Part shown: one piece after another, positions 32,665 to 33,441 of the stretch | Numbering within the stretch: position 1 is the stretch's first letter | Layout: each line of letters starts with the position of its first letter | NCBI RefSeq assembly: GCF_016863395.1 | Contig: NZ_BOOU01000055.1 | Coordinates: forward strand, 1 to 64,000 | Direction of reading: 5' to 3' | Origin: Sphaerisporangium rufum | Lineage (GTDB): Bacteria; Actinomycetota; Actinomycetes; Streptosporangiales; Streptosporangiaceae | DNA: 64,000 nucleotides | The notes under the pieces: generated by a model | What the model was told of the DNA's origin: nothing | What the model saw: the letters and a program-made list of their open reading frames with translations, nothing else | Databases searched by the model: none | Made by a program: the position numbers and the translations under genes

Positions 32665-32985
32665 GTGGGACAGGTGAAGGTATGGCATCGTCGCACGGTC
32701 GTCCATCAGGTCACCGACGCCCGCCCCTCCCTCTCGGCCGACATCGGGCGCCGAGAGAAGATCTATTTCGTGCAGATGAGCATCCGGCTGGTGTGCCTGG
32801 TGCTGGCCGTCGTGCTCAGCGTGCCCTGGCCGGTCCGCGCGCTGCTGGTGGCCGGAGCGATCTTCTTGCCGTACTTCGCGGTGATCGGGGCGAACCAGCC
32901 GAGCCGTGACGCTCCCTCGCCCTTCGCCGGGGAATCACCTAACCAAAGCGAGATACCACGGCACCGACGCGAGATCGGGTCGTGA
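32665..32985 (+). CDS. DUF3099 family small membrane protein
   Basis: The 106-residue product has two hydrophobic helices (SIRLVCLVLAVVLSVPWPVR and ALLVAGAIFLPYFAVIGA). The preceding VTDARPSLSADIGRREKIYF is typical of actinobacterial DUF3099 proteins, which have no known function. The start is GTG 32665, with GTG 32674 as an alternative. The three-hairpin RNA begins about 45 bases after its stop. Confidence 0.85.
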   Translation: MGQVKVWHRRTVVHQVTDARPSLSADIGRREKIYFVQMSIRLVCLVLAVVLSVPWPVRALLVAGAIFLPYFAVIGANQPSRDAPSPFAGESPNQSEIPRHRREIGS

Positions 32986-32992
32986 CAAAGTC

Positions 32993-33024
32993 TTGACGCA
33001 CCCCATGGGTTGTAGGTGTACGCT
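32993..33024 (+). promoter_or_regulatory. Candidate promoter of C-loop small RNA
   Basis: TTGACG at 32993-32998 fits a -35 box, and TACGCT at 33019-33024 fits the TANNNT -10 pattern. The 20-base spacer is long, so the -10 assignment is uncertain. A start near 33030 would place the first hairpin at the RNA 5-prime end. Confidence 0.45.
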
Positions 33025-33029
33025 TTAGG

Positions 33030-33156
33030 CAAGCGCTCTGGTCCCCCGTCAGAGCGCTCGTGCCGGCGTTCCGGGCCCCCGTCGGAACGCCGATGACGCG
33101 ACGCCGGGTGGTTTGCCCCCGTAACCACCCGGCGTCGCCCATTTCCGGGGGTTTTT
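33030..33156 (+). ncRNA. Small RNA with three C-loop hairpins (6C/B11-like)
   Basis: Three consecutive perfect hairpins each expose a 9-base loop containing CCCCCGT. Hairpin 1 has 9 bp (33032-33040 with 33050-33058, loop GTCCCCCGT). Hairpin 2 has 10 bp (33064-33073 with 33083-33092, loop GGCCCCCGT). Hairpin 3 has 16 bp (33098-33113 with 33123-33138, loop TGCCCCCGT), with a T tract at 33152-33156. Actinobacteria encode a conserved 6C RNA (B11 in Mycobacterium tuberculosis) defined by two hairpins with C-run loops, thought to pair with G-rich ribosome-binding regions. This locus has three such hairpins and five C residues per loop. Plus strand is chosen because the loops are C-rich and the T tract follows on that strand. 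Confidence 0.75.
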
Positions 33157-33177
33157 CGGTTTCCGGGCCGCCGCCGG

Positions 33178-33441
33178 TCAGCGGCCGGGCACCTGCTCCC
33201 CGGCGGCCGGCGCCGCCCATTCCCGGGCCATCGCCGCGAGCCGCCCGGCCGCGTCCGGACCCGCGGTGCCCGCGCCCTGGGCCAGCCCGAGCAGGTAGGC
33301 GGTGAGCGGCGCGGCCGGCCGGGCCACCCCGTGCGCCACGTCCCTGGTCAGGTCGAGTACCACATCCCGGTCCAGTTTCTCCGGGTCGATGCCGAGTTCC
33401 TGGCAGACCAGCGCCGTCCATTCCGCGAGTACGTTCACCAT
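33178..33441 (-). CDS. DUF6457 domain protein
   Basis: The 87-residue helical protein (VLAEWTALVCQELGIDPEKLDRDVVLDLTRDVAHGVARPAAPLTAYLLG) matches small actinobacterial proteins encoded next to or fused with MobA. It lies 51 bases downstream of mobA on the same strand, so a role in molybdenum cofactor maturation is plausible but unproven. Confidence 0.8.
   Translation of the reverse strand: MVNVLAEWTALVCQELGIDPEKLDRDVVLDLTRDVAHGVARPAAPLTAYLLGLAQGAGTAGPDAAGRLAAMAREWAAPAAGEQVPGR

Follow-up and report, generated by a model that had tools for sequence, protein, structure and literature searches.

A three-hairpin RNA with like C-rich loops beside a DUF3099 gene of Sphaerisporangium rufum is very probably distinct from 6C RNA

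The interval between a DUF3099 gene and a DUF6457 gene of Sphaerisporangium rufum almost certainly holds a conserved structured RNA gene. It lies in the window, which here means the whole analysed stretch of 64,000 nucleotides (NCBI RefSeq assembly GCF_016863395.1, contig NZ_BOOU01000055.1, positions 1 to 64,000). Judged by sequence comparison, the RNA appears to be the three-hairpin form of an sRNA family that is apparently unlisted, and not 6C RNA. By analogy with known RNAs, we lean with modest confidence towards a free-standing sRNA gene with its own promoter, whose product would act in trans by pairing of its C-loops with G-rich mRNA. The features of the region are the following, and the position between the two DUF genes, already given in the preliminary description, is confirmed by their Pfam matches.

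32665..32985, + strand: DUF3099 gene (PF11298; Pfam E 2.3e-21), upstream of the RNA
32993-32998, + strand: -35-like TTGACG, 20 nt ahead of the -10 hexamer (usual distance 16-18)
33019-33024, + strand: -10-like TACGCT (TANNNT), with GGTG just before it
33030..33142, + strand: core of the sRNA gene as modelled, with the start predicted from the -10 hexamer
33032-33058, + strand: hairpin H1, 9 bp, with loop GTCCCCCGT at 33041-33049
33064-33092, + strand: hairpin H2, 10 bp, with loop GGCCCCCGT at 33074-33082; probably duplicated in tandem from H1
33098-33138, + strand: hairpin H3, 16 bp, with loop TGCCCCCGT at 33114-33122; probable 3' end
33178..33441, - strand: DUF6457 gene (PF20058; Pfam E 1.3e-23), downstream and convergent; the next two genes after it are mobA-like and moaA-like (Pfam NTP_transf_3 and Radical_SAM/Mob_synth_C)

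Direct reading of the letters within 33032-33138 agrees with the preliminary description on the three perfect stems of 9, 10 and 16 bp and on the 9-nt loops, all three of which end in CCCCCGT. The + strand of the window has this heptamer four times, three of them being the loops of H1 to H3, and on the - strand it occurs twice, neither copy inside such a hairpin. The stretch 33010-33180 is predicted to fold with -94.7 kcal/mol (z -4.49), and none of 200 shuffled sequences was equally stable. Inverted repeats are common in intergenic DNA, and hairpins of this kind could in principle arise by chance or belong to a mobile repeat (REP-like or of transposon origin); the likelihood of this is negligible given the recurring gene neighbourhood and the covariation described below, and the repeat was rejected because the genome contains a single strong copy, the other matches at E<=10 being the antisense of the same place and one hit of 23.7 bits.

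The preliminary description had named a lack of conservation of loops or stems in related genomes as the result that would count against it, and the opposite was found: a DNA search detected the RNA in all 11 genomes of the genus, S. rufum included, and in 195 of 200 genomes of the family, representing 65 of 68 genera, with no match in the five family genomes G020, G039, G056, G062 and G151. Mean pairwise identity among the 11 genus genomes is 98.2% in the RNA and 95.1% in the preceding 45 nt, compared with 79.6% in the last part of DUF3099 and 32.5% in the downstream spacer. Forty-eight family loci were inspected, 40 of them representing one further genus each and drawn from the better-scoring family matches listed; three copies of CCCCCGT are present within 100 bases by exact match in 45 loci, the sole difference in the other three (L061, L062, L072) is C for the last T of loop 1, and the C5G core is retained in all three loops of all 48. 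A second sample consisted of at least 118 stretches matching a pattern for hairpin 2, and 100 of 118 were given to R1, a model of the three hairpins built from 33 sequences including the window copy. R1 strongly matched 95 of the 100, from taxa that include Nonomuraea, Microbispora, Streptosporangium, Actinomadura, Thermomonospora, Nocardiopsis, Actinoallomurus and MAGs. Loop 3 is TGCCCCCGT in all 95 pattern-selected loci, and loop 1 has C5G in all 95 (83 GTCCCCCGT, 11 GTCCCCCGC, one ATCCCCCGT); each loop has five C in 95 of 95, a count that carries no evidence on loop 2 because the search pattern fixed it. The five pattern matches in which R1 detected no RNA come from Dermabacter (L085), a Deltaproteobacteria MAG (L127), Glaciihabitans (L148), Subtercola (L161) and Streptacidiphilus (L195), and R2, the two-hairpin model introduced below, gave them a chance-level score or none. 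One family genome, G102, has two strong matches, on contigs C329 and C485 (E 2.0e-53 and 4.1e-47), which are either a second copy or an assembly duplicate.

The covariation among related genomes that the preliminary description had proposed as a check supports the stems. In alignment A2, which comprises 33 of the 45 exact-match family loci, each of the 1150 stem cells is a standard pair, five further cells in H1 having been set aside for gaps, and two-sided changes occur at 11 of 35 pairs, distributed as 4 of 9 in H1, 1 of 10 in H2 and 6 of 16 in H3. The single two-sided change of H2 is from C-G to U-A in 8 of 33 rows, and covariation is present in the aligned sequences of all three stems and is modest in H2. 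Forty-six cells of A2 are changed on both sides compared with a mean of 11.2 after shuffling, none of five covariation measures was reached in 500 shuffles (which ignore relatedness), and sliding the partner by one to three columns lowers pairing to 35-52%. Because the stem cells of A2 include 54 G-U and no A-C, the RNA is assigned to the + strand. Between relatives the linkers show single-base differences, and this speaks against a conserved coding frame in these sequences. In the window itself R1 scores 134 bits (E 1.5e-20), the window copy being among the 33 training sequences.

Judging by the -10 hexamer, the RNA would start just before H1, at about 33030. The flanking promoter-like TTGACG of the preliminary description is present, and it is conserved across the family: in the 93 of 95 pattern-selected loci with 120 nt of upstream sequence, TTGAC at -37 to -33 from the model start (33030) is 88-96% conserved, and TANNNT at -11, -10 and -6 has T at 0.90, A at 0.90 and T at 0.99. 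A standard promoter scan, which accepts spacers of 16-18 only, found none here, where the spacer is 20. This spacer is unusual and is counted against the free-standing reading, as is the conserved position after DUF3099, which may be compatible with a role at the 3' end of that gene. A DUF3099 match precedes the RNA in 35 of 39 loci of the family and in 15 of 20 fetched from other families, and downstream are DUF6457, mobA or moaA in 21 of the 39 and moaA in 16 of the 20. With DUF3099 upstream in 50 of 59 loci in all, convergent DUF6457, mobA or moaA in 37 of 59, and a C/T-rich stretch following the strong stem of H3, the hairpins could, without any regulatory role of their own, be a terminator of the DUF3099 mRNA or its processed 3' UTR, located between convergent genes. 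A simple terminator is nevertheless disfavoured, and this explanation as a whole is unlikely: it requires neither invariant loops nor two further hairpins with the same loop, it requires no conserved promoter-like TTGAC-N20-TANNNT, and the T tract is not conserved. That tract, the other flank noted in the preliminary description, does exist at 33152-33156, but it lies beyond the conserved portion and is not retained across the genus. The terminator scan accepts loops of 3-8 only, compared with the 9-nt loops here. The stretch GAGATCGGGTCGTGAC at 32971-32986 overlaps the end of the DUF3099 gene, and positions -55 to -44 from the model start are kept in the family at 0.62-0.92 per base; it may be a site for a regulator ahead of the promoter, or it may encode a conserved protein tail.

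Membership in the 6C/B11 RNA family, to which the preliminary description had likened the structure, did not hold. 6C (RF01066; B11 in Mycobacterium) is likewise actinobacterial and has stable hairpins with C-rich loops, and some two-hairpin relatives of the three-loop RNA have six C in the terminal loop, so a lineage-specific form of 6C with the same design could be imagined. PMC8388888 describes 6C as a pair of stem-loops, each with at least six C, whereas the RNA of the window has three stem-loops, five C followed by GU, another gene neighbourhood and no match to the 6C model; its relatives in other families have two hairpins or one. Running the RF01066 model on the region, as had been suggested, gave no match at E 10 in 32900-33250, the nine hits there belonging to unrelated families far below their cut-offs, and an Rfam scan of the window gave no hit of any family over its gathering threshold. 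A scan of 16 relatives at E<=1 returned three hits, to a human lncRNA family and to a family of microRNAs, which are implausible, and none to 6C. Furthermore, the genome has a canonical 6C elsewhere (G000:C90:18287-18362, 54.8 bits with a cut-off of 47), the three-loop RNA being on G000:C55, and the ORF after this 6C has a weak match to CobQ/MinD/ParA-type ATPases (CbiA, E 1.1e-6) and is presumably the usual ssd-type neighbour of 6C. Of 27 genomes chosen from carriers of the three-loop RNA, five gave no 6C match and 22 gave one (over the cut-off in 16), and each of the 22 has it away from the three-loop RNA; the two RNAs therefore coexist in the same genomes at different places. On the locus that holds 6C, R2 scored at chance level (E 0.52) and away from the 6C position. 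With no RF01066 match, a separate 6C locus, three loops and five C per loop, 6C membership was rejected, and a lineage-specific form of 6C is very improbable. By analogy of design, the two RNAs likely share a mode of action.

The search for relatives extended beyond the family. With a cut-off of E<=0.01, R1 matched 77 of 394 genomes of the class, 41 in the same family (E<=2.3e-12) and 36 in other families (E 5.3e-7 to 0.0094). Loci were fetched from 20 of these 36, and 19 of the 20 adjoin DUF3099, moaA, dodecin or tldE, the exception being L249. In 15 two-hairpin relatives, six of which come from one much-sampled genus, 98.7% of 315 cells are paired and 10 of 21 pairs have two-sided changes, a result reached in none of 500 shuffles. 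Model R2, built from these 15, recovers the window at H2-H3 (E 7.0e-9). Across the phylum, with stricter filters that make the search insensitive, R2 matched 15 of 396 genomes including that of S. rufum, and neither of two weak hits of this search lies in the conserved neighbourhood; with laxer filters a match at E<=1 was obtained in 25 of 40 chosen genomes of the class. Eighteen of the laxer-filter loci were inspected, and 16 are in the same neighbourhood (five already counted), with L285 and L286 as exceptions. The weak hits L249, L267, L268, L285 and L286, all outside the neighbourhood, were dropped as chance.

A census of perfect stems (loops of 6-12) in 30 out-of-family loci gave 16 loci with two C-loops, 13 with one, a single locus without any and no locus with three, with undercounting of loci that have a stem mismatch (L237, L238, L248). 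Within the loci examined, the three-loop form thus marks the family, in accordance with the earlier suggestion that it is a distinct lineage. A terminal hairpin similar to H3 is present in the relatives of other families; by this comparison H3 is the most widely conserved module of the RNA, and it is probably the 3' end. The preliminary description had held that the stem sequences differ and that the loops alone are under common constraint, which stands for H3 and is too simple for H1 and H2, the stems of which are alike: 12 of 16 positions are identical in the window and 13 of 16 when the majority H1 is used, a level reached by 39 of 20,000 random stem pairs. The single upstream hairpin of the relatives has a stem that is 13/14 like H1 and 12/14 like H2, and H1 and H2 are probably a tandem duplication of that hairpin. 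In four out-of-family loci (L232, L247, L271, L276) a shared stretch resembling TGACATCGATCCGTGCAATACT comes before the RNA, and in 22 of the 30 TGNNAT(A/G)NT occurs in the stretch searched around the hairpins, unlike the promoter type of the window's family.

According to the free-standing reading, an sRNA of about 113-125 nt would be transcribed from the + strand, starting at about 33030 and driven by its own promoter-like sequence. The three stems would lock most of the RNA and leave three copies of CCCCCGU as the main exposed parts; the modelled core in the window has 113 letters, 43 of them unpaired, and 27 of these 43 are in the three loops. Each loop would be a seed for pairing with G-rich stretches (GGGGG, CGGGGG) of mRNAs, this pairing would alter translation or stability of the mRNA, several loops would confer higher affinity or several targets, and H3 would also form a stable 3' end. 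That the loops are invariant while the stems change suggests contact through the loops, and by analogy with 6C an antisense mechanism of the C-loops is judged somewhat probable. The same observations, near-identical loops on covarying stems and unpaired letters concentrated in the loops, would suit a decoy in which repeated CCCCCGU loops titrate a C-loop-binding RNA-binding protein and loop number sets the capacity, as would the variation of loop number by lineage, from three in the family to no more than two counted in any of the 30 out-of-family loci. An example is CsrA, which is titrated by multi-hairpin RNAs with GGA loops; such decoys of the CsrB/RsmY type likewise carry repeated like loops on different stems in variable number, with GGA loops in place of the C-rich loops seen here. 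By this analogy a decoy is conceivable and yet doubtful, since the analysis identified no candidate protein partner and 6C, the precedent, is reported to act by RNA-RNA pairing without chaperones (Mai et al. 2019).

Pairing of the C-loops with ribosome-binding sites, suggested in the preliminary description, was put to a rough test in 0.8 Mb of one sister genome with 412 ORFs. Start guesses were retained when an in-frame stop was present no more than 75 nt upstream, leaving 280, and the 25 nt before each start were searched; the test is weak because the starts are ORF-based guesses. With these crude starts, the full loop complement ACGGGGG preceded none of 280 and had the lowest count among 42 words of equal composition, the mean of which was 1.69. 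Widespread targeting of ribosome-binding sites by the whole loop is not supported by this crude test; the idea of pairing with such sites remains reasonable. Shorter complements were more frequent than in two control stretches: CGGGGG before 5 of 280 starts compared with 1 and 0, and GGGGG before 15 of 280 compared with 6 and 3 of 280. Sites at which short pairing could occur are present, and ordinary Shine-Dalgarno-like G runs would account for them as well. The downstream GGGGG at 33147-33151 was set aside as a partner of the loops because the genus does not retain it.

PMC3765725 describes two groups of Streptomyces sRNAs that have a C-rich loop, scr5583/sar2652/svr5279 and scr1434/sar6912/svr1031, as named after the right-flanking genes SCO5583 and SCO1434 and as detected on Northern blots, with the highest levels in aerial growth and sporulation except for svr5279, which peaks in vegetative growth. 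By description rather than by sequence, these groups are likewise conserved intergenic sRNAs with a C-rich loop. In Streptomyces, moaA presumably lies near SCO1821, which argues against their being the two-hairpin relatives. In the literature searched, no description of the three-loop RNA was recognised and no mention of DUF3099 was found; a Streptomyces relative may already stand in supplementary tables of sRNAs.

A broader account, held with slightly more belief than doubt, is that the RNA belongs to an sRNA family that occurs in many families of Actinomycetes beside DUF3099 and moaA, is absent from Rfam 15, and constitutes a second C-loop regulator next to 6C, with a tandem hairpin duplication having raised the number of like loops from one or two to three in the lineage of Sphaerisporangium, Nonomuraea, Actinomadura and Nocardiopsis. 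If this is true, the evolving trait is the valency of the loops itself. Most antibiotic producers are actinobacteria, and to our knowledge this group has no known Hfq chaperone, which makes target finding by their sRNAs an open question. A single-copy RNA in a constant neighbourhood with one, two or three like loops would be a natural experiment for comparing loop number with the number of targets or the affinity from lineage to lineage. Two further elements were observed in passing: the genome of S. rufum also has the actinobacterial sRNA Ms_IGR-5 (RF02471) over its cut-off at G000:C62:9611-9859, and in one other family a strong G+C-rich inverted repeat directly follows the RNA, at about 1480-1510 of L237.
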